Positions 13,602 through 21,930 of a DNA stretch of 64,000 nucleotides are shown in pieces. This stretch comes from Dyella terrae (GTDB taxonomy: Bacteria > Pseudomonadota > Gammaproteobacteria > Xanthomonadales > Rhodanobacteraceae). Each line of letters opens with the position of its first letter. The stretch's first letter is position 1. The position numbers and the translations under genes were made by a program. A model generated the notes under the pieces. It saw nothing but the letters and a program-made list of their open reading frames with translations. It ran no database searches and had not been told where the DNA came from. The DNA is taken from the NCBI RefSeq assembly GCF_004322705.1, contig NZ_SIZZ01000001.1, positions 1,488,001 to 1,552,000 of the forward strand. The letters are read 5' to 3'.

Positions 13602-15026
13602 TCAATACATCATGGGTACGCGCACCGTGACTGTCGCATCCGGCGTATCCCGCGTCACGCCCACGCCCAACGTGAAGTTGAGCGTGCGTTTTTCGTTGAA
13701 ACGCCAGGAACCACCCAGAAGCAACGTACCTTGCAAGAGCCGCGTCGCGCCGGGCGCCGTTTTCCCGTTCTGCTTGACCGCACCGATCCAGCTCTGGTCG
13801 TAACCGATGCTGATCGACGCCTTCTCGTTGAGGGCCAGGCCCATGCCGACGCTGACGTCGACGATATTGCCAGGCTTCACTTCACCAAGGTTTTCCTTGC
13901 CCGAGAGCACCAGATTCCGGGTCACGTTGCTGCGCGAAAAGTTGTAGAGATAACTGACGTTGCCAAAGAAGACGACCGGGTCGGAGGGATACAACCAGGT
14001 CACGCCCGGTTGCAGCGAGTAGAAACCCGTACCGGTCGGCGATTCCAGTGGCAAGCCGGTGCCCGTGGCGTTCTCGACACAACGCTGCACGCAGTCGGTC
14101 GTGACTTCAAACGGGTCGCGTCCCGTGCGCGACTTGAAGCGCAGCCAGCCGATGTAATACGCCTTGTCCGGACCACCGTCATTGAGCTGGTAGCGTGCCG
14201 TCGCCTCGATGTCGCCGATGTCATGGCCACTGGTGGTGAACACCCGGTCGGTCGCCGAACCGGTAAAGATTTCACGGCTGATCGTATCGGTGTGCACCCA
14301 CAGGTAAGGCACGCGCACTTCGATCTCCAGGCGATTGGTGATGCCATAGCGCGCGGCGACCGTTGCCGTCTGCACCGTGGTCTTCACCTGCCGCGCGTCG
14401 ATCAGGCCGATCAGGATCGCCGGGATGACCGTGTAACCGATCAACGCGACGCGATCGAGCGATGAATAGCCCATCTGGTAGGAGGGCTCGAGGATGAACT
14501 TGCCCTTGGGCGTCAGCACGCCGGGCTGGTCGAAGATCGGCGCCACTTCCGGCGGTCGATTGTCGGTAGGCGGCGCCTGTCCCACCGGCTTGTTCGCATC
14601 CTGTGGCGCAGGGGCCGCAGCCGCGACGGCGTCGCCCGCCGGCATGGGCATGGCCGATGCGTTGGCGCCGCCTGCCGAGACGTTGCCGGCGCGCTGCTTG
14701 TCGAGTACATCCAGACCGACGGCCTTGCGCAACGAGCGATAGTCTTGCTCCTGTTGCGCCAGCGCTTTCTTCATGTCCTCAAGCTGCTGCATCTGTGCCT
14801 GGATCTGGCTGCGCATCGCATCGATGCGCTCGCCCTGCGACTCCATTTGCTTGCGCAGATCCGGGCTAAGCGTCGCCGGATGAGCCGGCGTGCTGCTCGA
14901 AGGCGTGGCCTGCGCACTTTGCGCGGCATCCTGCGCGCCCGCCACCTGCCCCGCCACCGGACCGCCCAGCAGCACCAGTCCGGCGCACCCGGTCGAACAT
15001 AAGTACCGCCACGTTGAGTTGCGCAT
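13602..15026 (-). CDS. FapF-like coiled-coil/beta-barrel outer-membrane secretion protein
   Basis: This 474-residue exported protein starts with a signal peptide, then an Ala/Ser/Pro-rich segment and a heptad-like helix at about 53-105 (LRKQMESQGERIDAMRSQIQ onward, rich in Gln/Glu/Arg/Met). A Pro/Ala linker follows, then a beta-barrel of alternating aromatic strands from about 165 to the terminal Tyr (GVLTPKGKFILEPSYQMGYS, GITNRLEIEVRVPYLW, and VTVRVPMMY at the end). A periplasmic coiled coil joined to a barrel is the architecture of FapF, the outer-membrane pore for functional amyloid. It is the last gene of a five-gene unit with a C39 peptidase (FapD-like) and small exported proteins, which supports this reading. 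Many barrels of this family are annotated only as transporters, so amyloid secretion is inferred. GAGGAA precedes the ATG pair at 15029/15026. Confidence 0.65.
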   Translation of the reverse strand: MRNSTWRYLCSTGCAGLVLLGGPVAGQVAGAQDAAQSAQATPSSSTPAHPATLSPDLRKQMESQGERIDAMRSQIQAQMQQLEDMKKALAQQEQDYRSLRKAVGLDVLDKQRAGNVSAGGANASAMPMPAGDAVAAAAPAPQDANKPVGQAPPTDNRPPEVAPIFDQPGVLTPKGKFILEPSYQMGYSSLDRVALIGYTVIPAILIGLIDARQVKTTVQTATVAARYGITNRLEIEVRVPYLWVHTDTISREIFTGSATDRVFTTSGHDIGDIEATARYQLNDGGPDKAYYIGWLRFKSRTGRDPFEVTTDCVQRCVENATGTGLPLESPTGTGFYSLQPGVTWLYPSDPVVFFGNVSYLYNFSRSNVTRNLVLSGKENLGEVKPGNIVDVSVGMGLALNEKASISIGYDQSWIGAVKQNGKTAPGATRLLQGTLLLGGSWRFNEKRTLNFTLGVGVTRDTPDATVTVRVPMMY

Positions 15027-15131
15027 CATGCTTCCTCATGCTTCGGGTTCGACGTCGGGAGTGCGCCTGGTGCGCACCCTTCCTGGAGGGCGGATCGAAA
15101 ATCCAGCGTCGTGCGCGGCCGCATGCATGGG

Positions 15132-15713
15132 TCAGTGGCCGATAGTCTGCAAGGCCGATTGCAGGCCCTGGAATTGGTTGAGGGTGCGAAAAGCGTTTAG
15201 CGAATTGACCGACGTATTGATCGTGGTCATGTTCTGGATGTGCTGACCATTGAGCGTGTTCTGGATCACCGTCGCTCCCATGCCCTGGTTGAGAATGGAC
15301 GGGTCAACCGAATTGCCCTGCCCGATTTGCACGACGGTCGTCGAATTGGCTGCCGCCAGCGCGGCGGCTTGCGCGCCCGTCATGTGCGCGATATCGGGAA
15401 TGTTGAAACTGGTTTGCGTCACGAGGTTGCCGTTGACGTACACCGCGCGATCAATGCCAAACGAGACGGCCAGGCCACTGGGGAGATCGAAGCCACCGCG
15501 CGTCTTGTCCAGCTGATCGGTCGCCACGGGCGAGCCGAAGCCTTCGACGTCGGCCTGCGGCGCCGCCGCAGCCAGGGTCTGGTCTGCCACGGGCGCGGCG
15601 GCGAGCGGCTTATCCGCGGCGGGAGGCTGGTCCTGAGCACTGGATCCATGCGCCCACGCACCGCCGATGCAGAACACTACGCCGATACAGACAACGCGCG
15701 TCATGGGCTTCAT
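15132..15713 (-). CDS. Exported small protein with double-glycine propeptide, FapE-position
   Basis: I do not recognise a named family. The 193-residue product has a Sec signal (MKPMTRVVCIGVVFCIGGAWA), an Ala/Pro-rich pro-region and then ATDQLDKTRGG ending at Gly73-Gly74, a match to C39-peptidase leader sites (L at -7, acid-like Q at -8, GG at -2/-1). The downstream part ends in a Gln/Asn-rich tail with TVIQNTLNGQHIQNMTTIN, a motif shared with the product of 16412-16855. It directly follows the C39 peptidase gene (12-base gap) and precedes the FapF-like barrel, the place of fapE. The ATG at 15713 was chosen over GTG at 15719 because GAGGG is nine bases upstream. It is likely a minor fibre or secreted component (inference). 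Confidence 0.7.
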   Translation of the reverse strand: MKPMTRVVCIGVVFCIGGAWAHGSSAQDQPPAADKPLAAAPVADQTLAAAAPQADVEGFGSPVATDQLDKTRGGFDLPSGLAVSFGIDRAVYVNGNLVTQTSFNIPDIAHMTGAQAAALAAANSTTVVQIGQGNSVDPSILNQGMGATVIQNTLNGQHIQNMTTINTSVNSLNAFRTLNQFQGLQSALQTIGH

Positions 15714-15725
15714 GGTCACGTTCCC

Positions 15726-16415
15726 TCAAATGTCGCCCGGCCCACGTTTGGGCATGGTCATGTTGTAGAGGCTGCCGCGATCAATGCCGCTGCTGAGTGG
15801 CGCATTGGGTGACACGCGCCAGTCCTGCGGACTGTTGAACACGGCGATATTGCGGCGGTTGTGGATCACGAACACGAGGCCGTTTTTCCAGACGCTCATG
15901 AACTTGTCCATGGCGATCGCACGCGTTCCCAGCGCCGGATCCCCGACGAGCACGCGCCCGTCGCGCACGCCCTTGATCACCACGAAATGGTGATAGCCCT
16001 TGATATCGATCAGCACGATGGCAGGCAGGTTTTCGTCTTCGAGTTTTTGCAGCGGCACCTTGAACCCATCGGCCTGGAAGCCATTGGCAGCGAGGAATCG
16101 CTTGATATCAAGCAGGGAGAAACCTTCCTTGTGGATCTTCTCCTTGTCACCGCTTGCGTACATCTGCTCGAACGCGGTCTGCTCGTTGACCGGATAGCCG
16201 TACTGGTAGGTCAGTAGCGTCGCCACAGCCGCGGAGCCGCAGCTGAAGTCGTATTTCTGTCGAATGGTATTCCTGAAACGAGCCTCCTTGAGGCTCGTCA
16301 GATGCAGGGTGTACGTGTCGCCTTGCGCGCCCACCACGCCGACCGGCGTGGTAGCTGCTGCCGCCACGGGCAGCAGCATTGCCATTGCAACGAGCAGCGC
16401 AGCTGCTTTCTTCAT
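15726..16415 (-). CDS. Periplasmic C39-family peptidase, FapD-like
   Basis: This 229-residue stand-alone C39 cysteine peptidase has an N-terminal signal peptide (MKKAAALLVAMAMLLPVAAA). The catalytic Cys lies in KYDFSCGSAAVATLL (about residues 54-68), the His in GYHHFVVIKG and the Asp in LVGDPALG. There is no membrane or ATP-binding domain, so it is not a bacteriocin ABC exporter. A secreted single-domain C39 protein between small exported proteins and a barrel is the FapD arrangement. Two neighbours carry GG-type cleavage motifs, which makes them likely substrates. The ATG overlaps the upstream stop codon (ATGA), indicating translational coupling. Confidence 0.8.
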   Translation of the reverse strand: MKKAAALLVAMAMLLPVAAAATTPVGVVGAQGDTYTLHLTSLKEARFRNTIRQKYDFSCGSAAVATLLTYQYGYPVNEQTAFEQMYASGDKEKIHKEGFSLLDIKRFLAANGFQADGFKVPLQKLEDENLPAIVLIDIKGYHHFVVIKGVRDGRVLVGDPALGTRAIAMDKFMSVWKNGLVFVIHNRRNIAVFNSPQDWRVSPNAPLSSGIDRGSLYNMTMPKRGPGDI

Positions 16416-16855
16416 GGCGTGAACTGCACGTTGACGACGGTGGCGTTCTGGATCAGCACGTTGCTTCCGGTGTTCTGAATCACCGTCGGCAAGCCGGAGG
16501 CGCCGCTGAAGGATTCGCCGCTAATGGCGTTCGAACCGGAAACGACGCGCGAAGCCGTGTTGCCCGTGACGGTCCCGTTCAACGTGGTGTTCTGTTTGAC
16601 ATTGGTGCCGCCGCTCATGTCGGCGAGCTGATCGTCGGCGGTGCTTTGTCCGAGTCCTTCGACGTGCGGACTGCCCTCGACCTTGGTGCCTGCGGCGTAC
16701 GCAGCGGGTGCGTCCGGACCGTAGGCGAGAAACACGGGAGGAATGGAACTGGCATTGCCGCTGTTGCCGGCGTGGCTCTGGTTATCCGCTGCCCACGCCG
16801 CCACCGGCAGTACGCAGCATACGGTCAATCCGAGCACCCACTTCGCGGATCGCAT
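16412..16855 (-). CDS. Exported small protein with double-glycine propeptide
   Basis: The family is not recognised. The 147-residue product has a signal peptide (MRSAKWVLGLTVCCVLPVAAWA), a short pro-region and STADDQLADMSGG ending at Gly82-Gly83, a good C39 leader site (Leu at -7, Gln at -8, Met at -4, GG). The remaining 64 residues are Asn/Thr/Ser/Val-rich and end in LPTVIQNTGSNVLIQNATVV, resembling short amyloid or curlin-like repeats. The pro-region shares the pattern VEGxGxxxAxDQLxxxxGG with the 15132-15713 product. The ATG at 16855 is preceded by GGAGAG. Its stop overlaps the C39 peptidase start by four bases. It is a likely substrate of that peptidase and a minor fibre subunit or nucleator (inference). 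Confidence 0.7.
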   Translation of the reverse strand: MRSAKWVLGLTVCCVLPVAAWAADNQSHAGNSGNASSIPPVFLAYGPDAPAAYAAGTKVEGSPHVEGLGQSTADDQLADMSGGTNVKQNTTLNGTVTGNTASRVVSGSNAISGESFSGASGLPTVIQNTGSNVLIQNATVVNVQFTP

Positions 16856-16933
16856 GGCGTTCTCTCCGTTGTCCCTGGCCGCTTCACACCCCGAGCGCCT
16901 GCCTCTACGACAGGCGCGTTGCGGAGAATGAAG

Positions 16934-16964
16934 GGCACGGTGGAGCGCGAGGCTCCACCGTGCC
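16934..16964 (-). promoter_or_regulatory. Strong 13-bp hairpin between the first two genes of the Fap-like unit
   Basis: GGCACGGTGGAGC and GCTCCACCGTGCC form a perfect 13-bp stem with a 5-base loop, 14 bases after the stop of the Gly-rich gene. No U-tract follows on the minus strand, so it looks like an attenuating or mRNA-protecting structure rather than a full terminator. It would make the first gene the most abundant product. Confidence 0.55.
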
Positions 16965-16977
16965 GGGTTGCTATCGA

Positions 16978-17925
16978 TCAATGACCGAGGTTCAGGTTGG
17001 CCTGGACATTCACGCCCTGCTGAATCAGCGATGCTGCGCCGCTGTTCTGCGCGATGATCGCTACGCCAGCCGCACCGGCTGCCGCGCTGTCCATCGTGTT
17101 GGACATGTTGAATGTGCCGGCATCGGCGTAGGCAGTGCCACCGGCTGCGCCGTTGCCACCGTTGCCGCCCGTGCCCGCGCCACCCATGCCACCGGAGCCT
17201 GCGCCGCCTGCGCCACCGGCGCCGCCGGTGCCGTCAGCTGCACCGCTGGTGCCACCGGTCGAGGTCGCTGCGCCACTGCTGGCGGTCGACGCACCACTGG
17301 TGCCCGCGCCGCCTGCCCAGCTGCCGGCTCCGCCGGTCGCCGTGCCGCTGCCCGAACCACGTTGACGATTGCGGGTATTGCCGTTGTCGCCATCGGAGCT
17401 GCCGCCGCTCGCGCCGCTTAGCGCGCCGACATAGCCGCTATCCGCGCCCGAACCGCCAGCGTGACCGCTGCGGGAGTCGCTATCACCGCCTGAACCACCA
17501 CGGCCGCCATCACCGCCGGTTCCGCGACCGCCGATGCCCTTGGCACCGTTGCCGCCGTCGCCACCGTTCGCGCCGCCCCAGTTCTTGGCGACGTTGCCGA
17601 TGTCATGGACATAAACGTCGCTCACTGCACCGTTCAGGGTGCTGTTGGCGACTGCATTGCTGGTATTGAAGGAGTCGGACACGTTCGAAGTCGCCGTGCC
17701 GCCATTATTCGCCGCTGCACTACCCAGACCACCGGAACTTGCATCGCCCATGTTGAAGGCATCCGTGAAGGTATGCGTGCTCGAATTGGTATGCGTGCTG
17801 GAGTTGCTGTGTGTGCTCGAGTTGTTGTTGAAGTTCGAGTTGCCGTTGTGGTCGTTATCTGCATAGGCGACCGATGCCAGGCCAAAACTCAAGGCAATCG
17901 CCGTTACGAGCAGAGTCTTACGCAT
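16978..17925 (-). CDS. Gly/Ala/Ser/Asn-rich exported protein, candidate major fibre subunit
   Basis: No known family is recognised with confidence. The 315-residue product has a signal peptide (MRKTLLVTAIALSFGLASVAYA), then an Asn/Ser/Thr/His segment with SSTHSNSSTHTNSSTHT repeats (34-50). A 50-120 region contains FTDAFNMGDASSGG and DSFNTSN. A long Gly-rich low-complexity block (about 121-270) has GGAGGAG-type repeats. A C-terminal segment with IIAQNSGAASLIQQGVNVQA (near 289-308) echoes the VIQNT...IQN motif of the other small proteins. It lacks Cys and has few bulky hydrophobics. It is first in the unit, close to a sigma-54 promoter and before a strong hairpin, fitting an abundant secreted subunit. 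Unlike the other two it shows no GG leader site. AGGAGA precedes the ATG. Confidence 0.7.
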   Translation of the reverse strand: MRKTLLVTAIALSFGLASVAYADNDHNGNSNFNNNSSTHSNSSTHTNSSTHTFTDAFNMGDASSGGLGSAAANNGGTATSNVSDSFNTSNAVANSTLNGAVSDVYVHDIGNVAKNWGGANGGDGGNGAKGIGGRGTGGDGGRGGSGGDSDSRSGHAGGSGADSGYVGALSGASGGSSDGDNGNTRNRQRGSGSGTATGGAGSWAGGAGTSGASTASSGAATSTGGTSGAADGTGGAGGAGGAGSGGMGGAGTGGNGGNGAAGGTAYADAGTFNMSNTMDSAAAGAAGVAIIAQNSGAASLIQQGVNVQANLNLGH

Positions 17926-17990: not shown

Positions 17991-18007
17991 TCGCAATACG
18001 CGTGCCA
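17991..18007 (-). promoter_or_regulatory. Sigma-54 (RpoN) promoter of the Fap-like unit
   Basis: On the minus strand TGGCACGCGTATTGCGA matches the -24/-12 consensus TGGCAC-N5-TTGC, with the invariant GG and GC exactly ten bases apart (18006-18005 and 17994-17993). A start near 17982 would leave a leader of about 57 bases before the ATG at 17925. A T8 tract lies directly upstream. An enhancer-binding activator is required for this promoter type. Confidence 0.7.
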
Positions 18008-18412: not shown

Positions 18413-19558
18413 TCAGCGCTTTTCGATCGGCACGTAGGCCAGGTCTTCCGGGCCGGTGTAGTTCGCGCTCGGACGGATGATCTTTCCGTCTTCGCGCTGC
18501 TCGATCACGTGCGCACTCCAGCCGGAGGTACGCGAAATGACGAACAGCGGCGTGAACATGGCCGTCGGCACGCCCATCATGTGATACGCGCTGGCCGAGA
18601 ACCAGTCGAGGTTGGGGAACATTTTCTTCAGTTCCCACATGGTCTTCTCGATGCGCTCGGAGACGTCGAACAGCGTCGGGTTGCCACCCTCGGTGCAGAG
18701 CTTGCGCGAGACTTCCTTGATGATTTCGTTGCGCGGATCGGACACGGTGTAGACCGGGTGGCCGAAACCGATGACGATTTCCTTGCGCTCAACGCGGGCG
18801 CGGATATCGGCCTCGGCGTCATCGGCATTGCGATAGCGGGAGATGATGTCCATCGCCACTTCGTTCGCGCCGCCGTGCTTGGGGCCACGCAGCGCGCCAA
18901 TGGCGCCGGTGATGGCCGAATAGATGTCCGAACCCGTGCCGGCAATGACGCGCGCCGTGAACGTCGATGCGTTGAACTCATGCTCGGCGTACAGGATCAG
19001 CGACTTGTCCAGGGCATGCGCGTGCAGCTCGCTGGCCTTCTTGCCGTGCAGCAGGTGCAGGAAGTGCGCGGCGATCGAGTCATCGTCGGTCTCCGTCTCG
19101 ATGCGCTTGCCGTTGTGGCTGAAGTGGTACCAGTACAGCAGCATCGAACCGAAGCTCGCCATCAGGCGATCGGCGATGTCACGTGCCCCGGTGAGGTTGT
19201 GGTCTTCCTTTTCCGGCAACACGGTGCCGAGCACCGAGCAGCCGGTGCGCATGACGTCCATCGGATGCGTGGCGGCGGGCAGCAGTTCCAGCGCACCCTT
19301 CACCGGCGCAGGCAGGCCACGCAGGCGCTTGAGCTTGGCGCGATAGGCATTCAGTTCGGCCCAGTTCGGCAGGACGCCGTGGACCAGCAGGTAAGCCACT
19401 TCTTCGAAGCAGCCCTTGGCGGCGAGATCGTGGATGTCATAACCGCGATAATGCAGATCGTTGCCACTGCGGCCGACCGTGCACAGCGCGGTATTGCCCG
19501 CAGCCACGCCGGACAGCGCGACGGACTTCTTGGCCTTGGGAAGAACTTGCTCGCTCAT
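18413..19558 (-). CDS. prpC: 2-methylcitrate synthase PrpC
   Basis: PrpC condenses propionyl-CoA with oxaloacetate to 2-methylcitrate. The 381-residue product belongs to the citrate synthase family and has the short (type II-like) length of PrpC. Catalytic histidines are in [15 protein letters not shown] and [19 protein letters not shown], with the Asp in [23 protein letters not shown] precedes the ATG at 19558, and the longer frame upstream is not supported. It follows prpB by 72 bases on the same strand. The adjacency to prpB identifies it as methylcitrate rather than housekeeping citrate synthase. Confidence 0.96.
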
Positions 19559-19630
19559 CGGATACTTCTCCTCACATGCATGCAACGGACCGCGCGCGCA
19601 CCAGCACCGCGCGGCGTGTGGAACCAACCA

Positions 19631-20518
19631 TCAGGCCTTTTTGCCGGTGAACAGCTCATCCAGCTTGTCCTCGTAGGCGTGGTAGCCGAGGAAGTCATAC
19701 AGCTGTTCGCGCGTCTGCAGCGTGTCGATGATGTTTTTCTGGGTGCCTTCGCGGCGCACCGTCTCGTAAAAGTTCAGCGCGGCCTTGTTCATCGCGCGAT
19801 AGGCGCCGCAGCAGTACAGCGCGATGTCCACGTTGGCGCCAGCCAGATCTTCCGTCGTGAAAAACGGCGTCGAACCGAATTCGGTCAGATTAGCCAGAAT
19901 CGGCACCTTCACGGCCGCCTTGAAGCGTCGGTAATCGTCGAGCGTCTTCATGGCTTCCGGGAAAATCATATCGGCACCGGCCTCGACGTAGGCCACGGCG
20001 CGTTCGATGGCCGAGTCGATGCCTTCGGCGGCAGCGGCGTCCGTACGCGCCATGATCACAAAGCCGGCATCGGTGCGGGCATCCACAGCGGCCTTCACGC
20101 GATCGACCATCTCGTCCTTCGGCACCACTTCCTTGCCGGGACGATGGCCACAACGCTTCTGGCCCACCTGGTCTTCCATGTGCACTGCCGCCACGCCGAC
20201 ATTGATGAACGAGCGGATCGTGCGCGCGATATTGAAGGCGCCGCCCCAACCGGTGTCGATATCCACCAGGAGCGGCATCTGGGTCGCGTCGACGATGCGG
20301 CGCGCGTCGGTCAGGACGTCTTCCATGGTCGAAATGCCGAGGTCGGGCATGCCCAGGGAGTTGGCTGCCACGCCACCGCCGGAGAGATAAAGCGCCTTGT
20401 AGCCCACGCGCTTGGCCATGAGGCCGGCGTAAGCGGTGATGGCGCCCATGACCTGGAGGGGCTTTTCTTCAGCCACTGCTGCGCGGAAACGCGCGCCGGG
20501 AGTTACGATCTGGGTCAT
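19631..20518 (-). CDS. prpB: 2-methylisocitrate lyase PrpB
   Basis: PrpB cleaves 2-methylisocitrate to pyruvate and succinate, the last step of the methylcitrate cycle. The 295-residue product is of the isocitrate lyase/PEP mutase superfamily with the signature [13 protein letters not shown] (active-site Cys), [15 protein letters not shown] for Mg binding, and MEDQVGQ. The ATG at 20518 has GGAGG immediately upstream and matches the family start ([21 protein letters not shown]). It is the first gene of prpBC and diverges from the dicarboxylate symporter gene. A 17-bp palindrome lies in the shared promoter region. Confidence 0.96.
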
Positions 20519-20568
20519 GGAGCCTCCGCGTAAAAAGGCGATTTTAGCGCGCGAAGGCAGGCTTGCCG

Positions 20569-20585
20569 TTGCTGCATAGCAGCAA
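20569..20585. promoter_or_regulatory. Palindromic operator candidate between prpB and the symporter gene
   Basis: TTGCTGCATAGCAGCAA is a perfect 7+3+7 inverted repeat in the 113-bp divergent promoter region. It is a plausible binding site for a prp regulator, but no regulator gene is present in the window. Confidence 0.4.
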
Positions 20586-20631
20586 TCGTAACTTCTTGCG
20601 CCACGCGTGAACTGACCCGTACATTCGGGAA

Positions 20632-21930
20632 ATGAACACACCTCCCCGTCTCGCAAGCCGCATCCTCTGGGGCCTGGCGCTGGGCGTGATCGCTGCCGTG
20701 ATCACCCTGGCGATCGGCCAGTTCCACCCCGCCACGCTCAAAGCCATGCAGGCCGTATCCACGGCGGTCTTCGACCCGCTGGGGCAGATCTTTTTGCGCA
20801 TGCTGTTCTTCGTGGTCATTCCGCTCGTCTTCGCCTCGCTGGCATCCGGCGTCGTGCAGCTGGGCAATCTTGAAAGGCTCGGTCCACTGGCCGGCCGCAC
20901 CTTCTTCCTTTTCTTCGCCAACATGGCCATCGCCGTCGTGATTGGCCTGGTGATGATGAACCTGCTGCAGCCCGGCCATCACCTGGATCCAGCCTCCAAG
21001 GCGCAACTGATGCAGGAATATGGCGGCGGCGCGGCGCTGGCCGTGGAACGCCAGCATGAGCAGCCCAGCATGAGCTTTGCCACGATCGTGGAGATGTTCA
21101 TGCCCCGCAATCTCTTCGGTGCCTTTGTCGGCAACAGCCGTGCAGCGCTGGGTGACGTCCTGCCGCTCATCCTGTTCGCGATCTTCGTGGGTGCGGCCGG
21201 GCTGCAGCTGAGTGAGGAAAAGCGGAAGAAGCTCCAGTCCGGCCTCGACCTCATCAGCGAAGTGATGACCGGTATCGTCGGCTTCGCGCTGCGACTGGCA
21301 CCGATCGCCGTACCCGCCATGATCTACAGCGTCATCGTGAAAGTCGGCGTGGATATCCTCCTCACCCTCGCTGTCTTCGTACTCGGCTGCGCCGTGGCGC
21401 TGGGCATCCACCTCTTCGGCACCATGTCCATCTGGCTGCGCTTCCTGGCCGGGCGTTCGCCGCTGGCCTATTTCCGCCAGATTCGCCCGCTGCTGGTGAC
21501 GGCCTTCTCGACCAGTTCCAGCAGCGCCTCCCTGCCCGCCTCACTGGCGATCGCCAGGGACGAACTGAAGCTTTCGCCCAGCACCGCCGGTTTCGTGCTG
21601 CCCATCGGCGCCACCATGAACATGAGCGGCACCGCCCTGTTCGAAGGATGCGTGGTGCTGTTCGTCGCGCAGGCGTTTGGCGTCGACCTCAACCTGGGCC
21701 AGCAGTGCGTGCTGATGCTCCTGTCGGTGCTCAGTGCGGTTGCCGTCGCCGGCATCCCCGGCGGTTCGCTGCCCTTGATCGCCGGCCTGCTGGCCACCTT
21801 TGGCGTGCCGCCGGAAGGCATCGGCATCGTGCTGGGCGTGGATCGCATCCTGGACATGCTGCGCACCACGGTGAACGTGGGCAGCGACATGGTGACGGCC
21901 ACCGTGGTCGATGCGCAGATGAAACGCTGA
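20632..21930 (+). CDS. Dicarboxylate/amino acid:cation symporter (DAACS family)
   Basis: This 432-residue secondary transporter is of the GltP/DctA/DcuA-unrelated DAACS family. Hydrophobic segments run throughout. The conserved re-entrant hairpin serine-rich motif is [16 protein letters not shown] (about residues 288-303), the second hairpin motif is [17 protein letters not shown], and the sodium-site stretch [12 protein letters not shown] is near the C-terminus. C4-dicarboxylates (succinate, malate) or glutamate/aspartate are the usual substrates, and sequence alone does not separate them. Its divergence from prpBC, which makes succinate and pyruvate, favours a dicarboxylate role (inference). 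CGGGAA precedes the ATG. Confidence 0.9.

Follow-up and report, generated by a model that had tools for sequence, protein, structure and literature searches.

A relative of the Fap export system in Dyella terrae with a stand-alone C39 peptidase and predicted double-glycine leaders on its exported proteins

The closest described relatives of the locus presented here are the Fap system of Pseudomonas (FapABCDEF) and the nap island of Neisseria; in what follows, the papers on both are cited for individual passages. In Fap, the minor subunit FapB is an internal homologue of FapC (PMC6173800) and a cysteine mutant of the peptidase FapD abolishes FapC secretion (PMC5557850). The target of FapD was called unclear in 2017, in a study that described canonical C39 sites as lacking and noted GG or GA motifs in FapE and FapF (PMC5557850), and it was still described as undetermined in 2018 (PMC6173800). 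A review of 2025 states that FapD is thought to process the N-terminus of FapE and the periplasmic region of FapF, in a passage that names no site (PMC12822426). Outside Fap, the nearest published logic is that of the nap island, where a periplasmic stand-alone C39 peptidase and a FapF-like channel have already been proposed, in 2025, to process and export GG peptides (PMC11798529). Here we describe five open reading frames (ORFs) on the minus strand of Dyella terrae contig NZ_SIZZ01000001.1, at 13602-17925 of the window (i.e., the whole stretch of 64,000 nucleotides that was analysed), which we call C, B, D, E and F in order of transcription. They probably form an exported-fibre or fibre-like surface-protein system that is a sister of Pseudomonas Fap, and in which a periplasmic peptidase, D, cuts before export through an outer-membrane channel, F. 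The original prediction had described a tight run of genes for a Gly-rich exported protein, a small protein, a C39 peptidase, another small protein and a barrel, and all five ORFs were found where it had placed them.

D is a C39 peptidase (PF03412, 72.1 bits over a Pfam cut-off of 22) and the sole match to this family found in the genome of the window. Against the NCBIfam model of FapD (NF058616) it scores 157.5 bits, not reaching the cut-off of 330, and F stands in the same relation to the FapF model (NF058560; 142.6 bits, cut-off of 700 not reached). Residues 156-473 of F match the solved FapF structure 5o67 (E 4.3e-23), so the barrel is not that of an unrelated porin family, a possibility that the original prediction had raised against itself. 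The other three products are of a different kind. B gave no Pfam match and 12.9 bits with the NCBIfam FapB model (cut-off 190), C gave no Pfam match and a single weak NCBIfam match, to an unrelated model, and E had no usable match in either collection, the FapE model (NF058559, cut-off 250) included. FapC was not matched in the NCBIfam scan, which covered the five ORFs and the neighbouring prpC. Since several of the defining scores were tested and missed, the locus is not Fap by the curated definition. The Fap-like architecture with different subunit sequences that had been predicted is what we find, with D and F homologous to FapD and FapF, and B, C and E unmatched in the curated models.

The distribution of the locus was followed in two ways. 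The first was a set of 80 loci, the best 80 of 140 relatives of D among GTDB species genomes, chosen by similarity of D. Searches with phmmer recovered B in 80 of them, E in 79, C in 78 (a match that is partly low-complexity) and F in 77, some of the stretches being short contigs. The hosts were Dyella, Rhodanobacter, Luteibacter, Frateuria, Fulvimonas, Variovorax and Povalibacter, together with assembled genomes labelled Polaromonas, Steroidobacter and others. The second was a sample of 197 genomes from the family to which the window belongs, in which 80 carried a D of the sister type and exactly the same 80 carried E, the two genes starting at most 1.5 kb apart in 79 of the 80. In the remaining genome, G001, the two genes fall on separate contigs, with E right at the beginning of its contig. 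It had been foreseen that small proteins occurring without a C39 neighbour would speak against the locus as a unit, and for E this is not the case. With 80 of the 197 family genomes, this is a common export system that lacks a curated name.

A D of the Fap type was present in 39 of these genomes, and 12 of the 197 held both types. All five genes of the sister type were found in each of the 12, and FapE stood beside the Fap-type D in 8 + 4 of them (two separate scans). The two types were told apart by their scores against one FapD model (229-263 vs 124-157 bits); lower scores were not counted, because the model matches weakly in 7 of 14 control genomes. In a tree built from 100 D rows, 96 of them different, the 56 sister-type and the 41 Fap rows were each split off by one branch, the former in 85% of 200 bootstrap trees (branch support 82/69, i.e., moderate) and the latter in 98% (98/73); the long-branch warnings involve three outside rows. 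One might hold that the locus is simply a divergent Fap operon and no separate system, as its gene order echoes Fap, as D, F and the leader region of E are homologous to their Fap counterparts and as the support of the sister branch is moderate. We regard this as unlikely, considering the separate clade in most bootstrap trees, the 12 genomes that carry both types, each with the five sister-type genes, and the lack of any curated FapB or FapE match for B and E of the window. On the sequences compared, the locus is best placed as a sister of Fap, able to coexist with it in one genome, and not as Fap itself. The likeness that had been read as a mirror of Fap thus holds for D, F, the leader of E and the gene order, whereas membership goes to a sister clade.

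A wider sample of 370 genomes of the class gave 74 matches to the FapF model, none above its cut-off, and 36 neighbourhoods were fetched around such matches. A Fap-type D with FapE was present in L142-L152, L155 and L156 (in L144 as a piece of fapD; L and G numbers are our handles for loci and genomes). L158-L175 carried a sister-type D, except L164, which holds F only. F occurred without D in L153, L154 and L157, with FapE at a distance in L154 and L157. The loci L215-L226 are not independent, 10 of the 12 being records already among the first 80, and further evidence at the level of the class was counted from the 18 loci L158-L175 only. For true Fap we used a set that we call Pseudomonadaceae-like (the family of G341, a label inferred from an OprF match and from 12 of 59 genomes above the FapF cut-off), in which 11 of 14 strong FapF loci were fetched. 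Two further neighbourhoods (L176:4900-6836 and L177:3534-5517) hold another type of D-F pair, on long branches and with no recognised E or B. A tblastn search of plasmids with D returned records (L202 among them) of which four, from Cupriavidus (60-62%), resemble the same system; 124 more are below 60%, many of them Campylobacter (46) and Rhizobium (38) by name.

Leaders read by C39 peptidases are recognised by hydrophobic residues at -12 and -7, often at -4, and by GG at -2 and -1. In B, GG stands at this site in 80 of 81 rows (window and 80 loci; the exception, L052, has GS), and in E in all 80 rows (window and 79 loci). Leu occupies -7 in every one of the 80 GG rows of each protein, Val is found at -12 in 64 of those of B and 73 of those of E, Arg precedes the glycines at -3 in 80/80 rows of E, and -4 is often hydrophobic, with exceptions. 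The mean frequency of the major residue at the site is 0.56 in B and 0.65 in E, against 0.21 in both for the stretch that separates it from the signal peptide, with values of 0.66 (B) and 0.60 (E) in the mature parts. When 524 other long ORFs from the first loci, a partly redundant control set, were searched for [VIL]....L....GG, 13 had it in their N-terminal region, and the GG sites in B and E are beyond chance. Neither gene has an extra copy in the genome of the window at E <= 0.01, and by eye no C39 leader was seen in C among eight sequences of the aligned set. In the class-wide loci, an automatic search found E with RGG at the site in 15 of 18; the call failed in L164 (where the gene lies outside the stretch), L171 and L175. 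A separate scan of L171 showed a frame with LAAADLAALRGGF. As had been predicted, B and E thus carry a Sec signal (assessed by eye, as for the other proteins) followed by a GG leader of the C39 type. The remark made then that a description of GG pro-sites in Fap proteins was not known has to be corrected, as GG and GA motifs in FapE and FapF were discussed in 2017 (PMC5557850).

Small GG proteins beside a stand-alone peptidase call to mind a bacteriocin-like or autolysis-peptide system, in which small GG peptides released by D would pass out of the cell by way of F, as is proposed for the nap island with its GG peptides, the stand-alone C39 peptidase NapP and the FapF-like channel NapF (PMC11798529). 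The mature part of B is just 64 residues long, which would suit such a role. However, NapA-C are cationic, while a net charge of at least +2 was reached by 2 of 81 mature B and 0 of 80 mature E rows (medians -2 and -2.5). Neither an ABC transporter nor an immunity gene is among the five genes, and the unit that makes up B also occurs, in some loci in several copies, in the large C protein. We consider this explanation very unlikely.

The two leaders of the original prediction are joined by what appears to be a third leader-like site, in F. At the end of its coiled coil, F carries VGxxxLDxxR[GA][GA] with small variations, i.e., the double-glycine pattern in variant form (GG, AG or GA), in 57 of 78 rows (window, L002-L057 minus L046, and L080). 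Within the 58 F rows of the lineage that bears it, Leu109 and Arg113 were found in 58/58, Gly115 in 97% and Val104 in 93%. Among distant loci the site was seen in L159 (VSSADLDTQRGG) and L171 (LPATALEDRRGA). Judged on the first 175-190 residues, 2 of 27 F rows of the Fap type have by eye a site of Fap style, L144 (TDRELGHLRGK) and L143 (VPDSELERLAGR), and none was seen in the 11 Pseudomonadaceae-like rows. A common style of the residue at -1 (P1) within one locus would fit a single protease cutting both proteins, the cases being two.

The undisguised GG leader on the protein that takes the position of FapE exposes a homologous leader in FapE itself, and with it the matching site between coil and barrel in F. 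Aligned as profiles, E and FapE gave an hhalign probability of 95.1 (E 3e-8), with RGG over RGR and FGI over FGV next to it. FapE of the Fap-type loci thus has a homologous leader with Arg or Lys at -1, recognised by pattern in 53 of the 56 matches to a FapE hidden Markov model (HMM), with RGR at the end of 49 and RGK at the end of four; the model was seeded with 15 sequences chosen by a pattern that includes the site, which is circular for these, and the others were found by the HMM. Of the remaining matches, L154 and L155 have RGK by eye and L157 is cut at the contig end. The 53 include all 11 Pseudomonadaceae-like loci, one of which, L204, has a FapE of 305 bits (cut-off 250); the distant L148 reaches 101.5. 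We propose RG[R/K] as a precise predicted site of FapD in FapE, the bond being RG[R/K]-[YF] or RG-[R/K]. No peptides were detected by mass spectrometry (MS) in the first ca. 70 residues of FapE (PMC5557850). In L204 the predicted cut falls after residue 40 and the next tryptic end, counted on the sequence, is residue 69, so the tryptic data need neither show nor exclude the cut. Among the listed matches from the open-licence PMC literature, supplements excluded, we recognised no description of the locus or of the RG[R/K] site of FapE. With it, the question of the FapD substrate becomes directly testable at named residues.

These sites would be put to use as follows. All five proteins would cross the inner membrane by Sec. 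In the periplasm, D would grip the short helical leader of B or E by its hydrophobic -12, Leu -7 and often hydrophobic -4, and cut after Gly-Gly, so that the leaders would be a second pro-sequence, acting after Sec export. F, too, is probably a substrate of D in this lineage, cut where its periplasmic coiled coil meets the plug and barrel, and cutting would license passage through the F channel. Since a single repeat unit is common to B and the C-terminus of C, assembly would begin from B or be anchored by it, and C would supply the bulk. What we observe directly is the homology, the conservation, the co-occurrence, the catalytic residues, the leader motif and the shared repeat; the cutting and its order, the export through F and the formation of fibres or amyloid are what we infer from them. 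More tentatively, one leader code may run through the whole FapD/FapF superfamily. Following Sec, a periplasmic C39 peptidase would read a second leader (hydrophobic at -12, Leu at -7, Gly or Ala at -2) on the cargo and, in several lineages, on the coil of the channel, with a P1 that is specific to the clade (Gly in E, Arg or Lys in FapE), and proteolysis would both license the cargo and re-set the gate; FapD would cut FapE at LxxhRG[R/K], a cut that would pass for a tryptic end in MS based on trypsin.

The shared repeat is seen when the HMM of mature B is run on C: it matches residues 275-308 of C in the window (19.4 bits, 3.8e-7), and C of L160 and L170 contains four such stretches each. In Dyella solisilvae, the matches to C and to B fall in a single open frame (L021:4418-5962), as if they were fused. 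Gly makes up on average 24% of C in one set of 56 rows and 29% in another of 23, with long GGX runs. The middle of the protein is GGX-rich in the lineage of the window and in Variovorax, with runs of the polyglycine type, and is elsewhere replaced by Asp/Asn/Ser repeats (L161, L168) or by B-like units. This composition would also suit a Gly-rich coat or adhesin of GGX polyglycine type that is not amyloid, exported in the manner of Fap with B and E as anchors. The Gly content, the GGX runs and the Asp/Asn/Ser middles in L161 and L168 favour such a coat, which would leave the processing mechanism untouched, while the B-like unit at the end of C, in four copies in L160 and L170, argues against it. 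We find the coat less likely than the fibre, and it is the most serious of the alternatives considered.

Several observations weigh against the fibre system with periplasmic cutting by D that we prefer. As C of the window has a single B-like unit and its middle is long and rich in Gly, an amyloid core is conjectural. In the 13 class-wide automatic calls of B, P2 is always Gly or Ala, but P1 is Gly in 2 and one of R, M, K, T and Q in the others, which makes the GG of B a feature of the Rhodanobacteraceae and Variovorax lineages; among the automatic B sites of L215-L226, those of L216, L217 and L223 had caught letters of the signal peptide. The site in F is missing from 21 of 78 rows (L046 and 20 others, mostly Variovorax) and stands out mildly, with a conservation of 0.77 against 0.64 for the coil and 0.81 for the barrel. 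Finally, AlphaFold models of read-through fusions, D-E (36 rows) and B-D (12 rows), give the leaders as a short helix with low confidence values (around 55 per block). The C39 domain of the D-E fusion is confident (blocks of about 90; some E rows of the folded alignment carry stray letters over the D half), and the leader is the only full block above 50 within B in the B-D fusion. The best PDB matches of the modelled D were the peptidase domains of ComA and PCAT1, with the protease-leader complex 6mpz lower in the list. Acidic positions that separate FapD of Fap from D (e.g., 220 and 223) were considered as a basis for the Arg or Lys at P1, but no place in the pocket could be assigned to them and they were not used.

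The variable P1 of B, and the fact that some C39-like domains are non-catalytic (PMC5557850, PMC6173800), would also fit a D that is a C39-like chaperone, holding the leader uncut, with the conserved motif as a docking sequence for D or F. This is a rather remote alternative to cutting, in view of the inactive FapD cysteine mutant (PMC5557850) and of the catalytic residues Gln53, Cys59, His143 and Asp159, invariant in 166 of 166 aligned D and FapD rows, an alignment anchored on a pattern that contains the Cys, so that the invariance of Cys59 is partly circular. Two of 168 rows were lost to the anchor, L228 (with FSCGAS) and L144. The latter is a Fap-type locus (L144:4348-4881) in which fapD is reduced to a 3' piece behind an apparent transposase remnant, with fapE and fapF kept.

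The features of the locus are collected in Table 1. The frames of B and D share four bases, and the gap between D and E is 6 or 12 bases depending on the start chosen for E. On one side the block is flanked by prpC (18413-19627, confirmed by NCBIfam), and on the other by a GST gene, a gene of the TerC family (Pfam) and an aconitase-like gene that, by eye, is acnD. The five genes lie downstream of prpC and a prpB-like gene (18413-20656). Both are present in 54 of the 55 loci L002-L056 (L046 has prpC only, near the end of its stretch), and the pair occurs in none of the loci L057-L081. Of 78 loci, 35, most of them from Dyella, have a sigma-54-type element at a distance of 61-88 nt in front of C, and the pattern gave just 37 matches over all 80 loci on both strands; in its strict form it was not found in Luteibacter, Variovorax and most Rhodanobacter loci. 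A simple sigma-70 scan of the locus found nothing. Compared with 30 mononucleotide shuffles, folding of the strong hairpin between C and B gave z < -2 in 47 of the 55 loci L002-L056 and in all 23 C-bearing loci of L057-L081, with a constant position and an altered sequence in most. Standing right behind C, it would fit an excess of C and may determine how much C is made relative to the proteins encoded downstream.

Table 1. Genes, predicted sites and putative regulatory elements of the locus (positions in the window).
Feature	Positions	Strand	Description or basis
C (glyC)	16978-17925	-	Gly-rich exported protein, 315 aa; probable major subunit
B	16412-16855 from ATG; longer ORF begins 16981	-	Exported protein, 147 aa (64 aa when mature); probably a minor or nucleating subunit
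D	15726-16415	-	Stand-alone exported C39 peptidase, 229 aa; FapD homologue; Gln53, Cys59, His143, Asp159
E	15132-15713 (ATG) or to 15719 (GTG)	-	Exported protein, 193 aa (119 aa when mature); leader region like that of FapE
F	13602-15029	-	FapF-type outer-membrane channel, 475 aa; N-terminal coiled coil
Predicted C39 leader of B, residues -12 to -1, GG end	16607-16642	-	Aligned B rows
Predicted C39 leader of E, residues -12 to -1, RGG end	15492-15527	-	Aligned E rows and pattern search
Leader-like site between the coiled coil and the barrel of F, VGLDVLDKQRAG, residues 104-115	14685-14720	-	Aligned F rows
Unit related to mature B at the C-terminus of C (residues 275-308)	17002-17103	-	HMM of mature B
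13-bp hairpin between C and B, without T run	16934-16964	-	Folding z-scores across loci
Sigma-54-type promoter element TGGCACG-N4-TTGC, 67 nt before start codon of C	17993-18007	-	Pattern scan

Among known systems, the fil genes of Acinetobacter (FilA-F) are like the locus in that the NCBIfam models of FilB and FilC match D (136.2 bits) and F (42.7 bits), but these scores are far under the cut-offs (475 and 630), and one A. baumannii locus is annotated with FilA, a gene named as an ABC transporter and FilF as neighbours. The C39 ABC exporters, such as ComA and PCAT1, share the peptidase fold with D and follow the same leader logic as this locus. Their C39 domain is cytosolic and part of the ABC transporter (PMC5557850), whereas D is exported and, as a stand-alone protein of 229 residues and the only PF03412 match of its genome, is not the fusion of C39 and ABC domains that defines a type 1 or bacteriocin exporter. 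The nap island (NapA-C, NapP, NapF), compared by its published description, is likewise proposed to process GG proteins and send them through the periplasm with a stand-alone C39 peptidase and a FapF-like channel (PMC11798529), but its products are cationic, microcin-like peptides linked to autolysis, unlike the neutral or acidic repeat proteins and the large Gly-rich subunit found here. Nearest of all is Fap. FapA is not among the five genes (the NCBIfam scan being that of the five ORFs and prpC), and its absence is the commonest published variant of Fap (PMC6173800). The locus differs from Fap in the scores of D and F, far under the curated cut-offs, in the unmatched subunits, in its own clade of D, in its coexistence with Fap in one genome and in the P1 of the E leader, Gly in the sister system and Arg or Lys in FapE. 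It shares with Fap the periplasmic C39 peptidase, the coiled-coil channel of FapF type, the FapE-like leader, a similar gene order and a minor subunit that has a repeat in common with the larger one, and it likely works like Fap.

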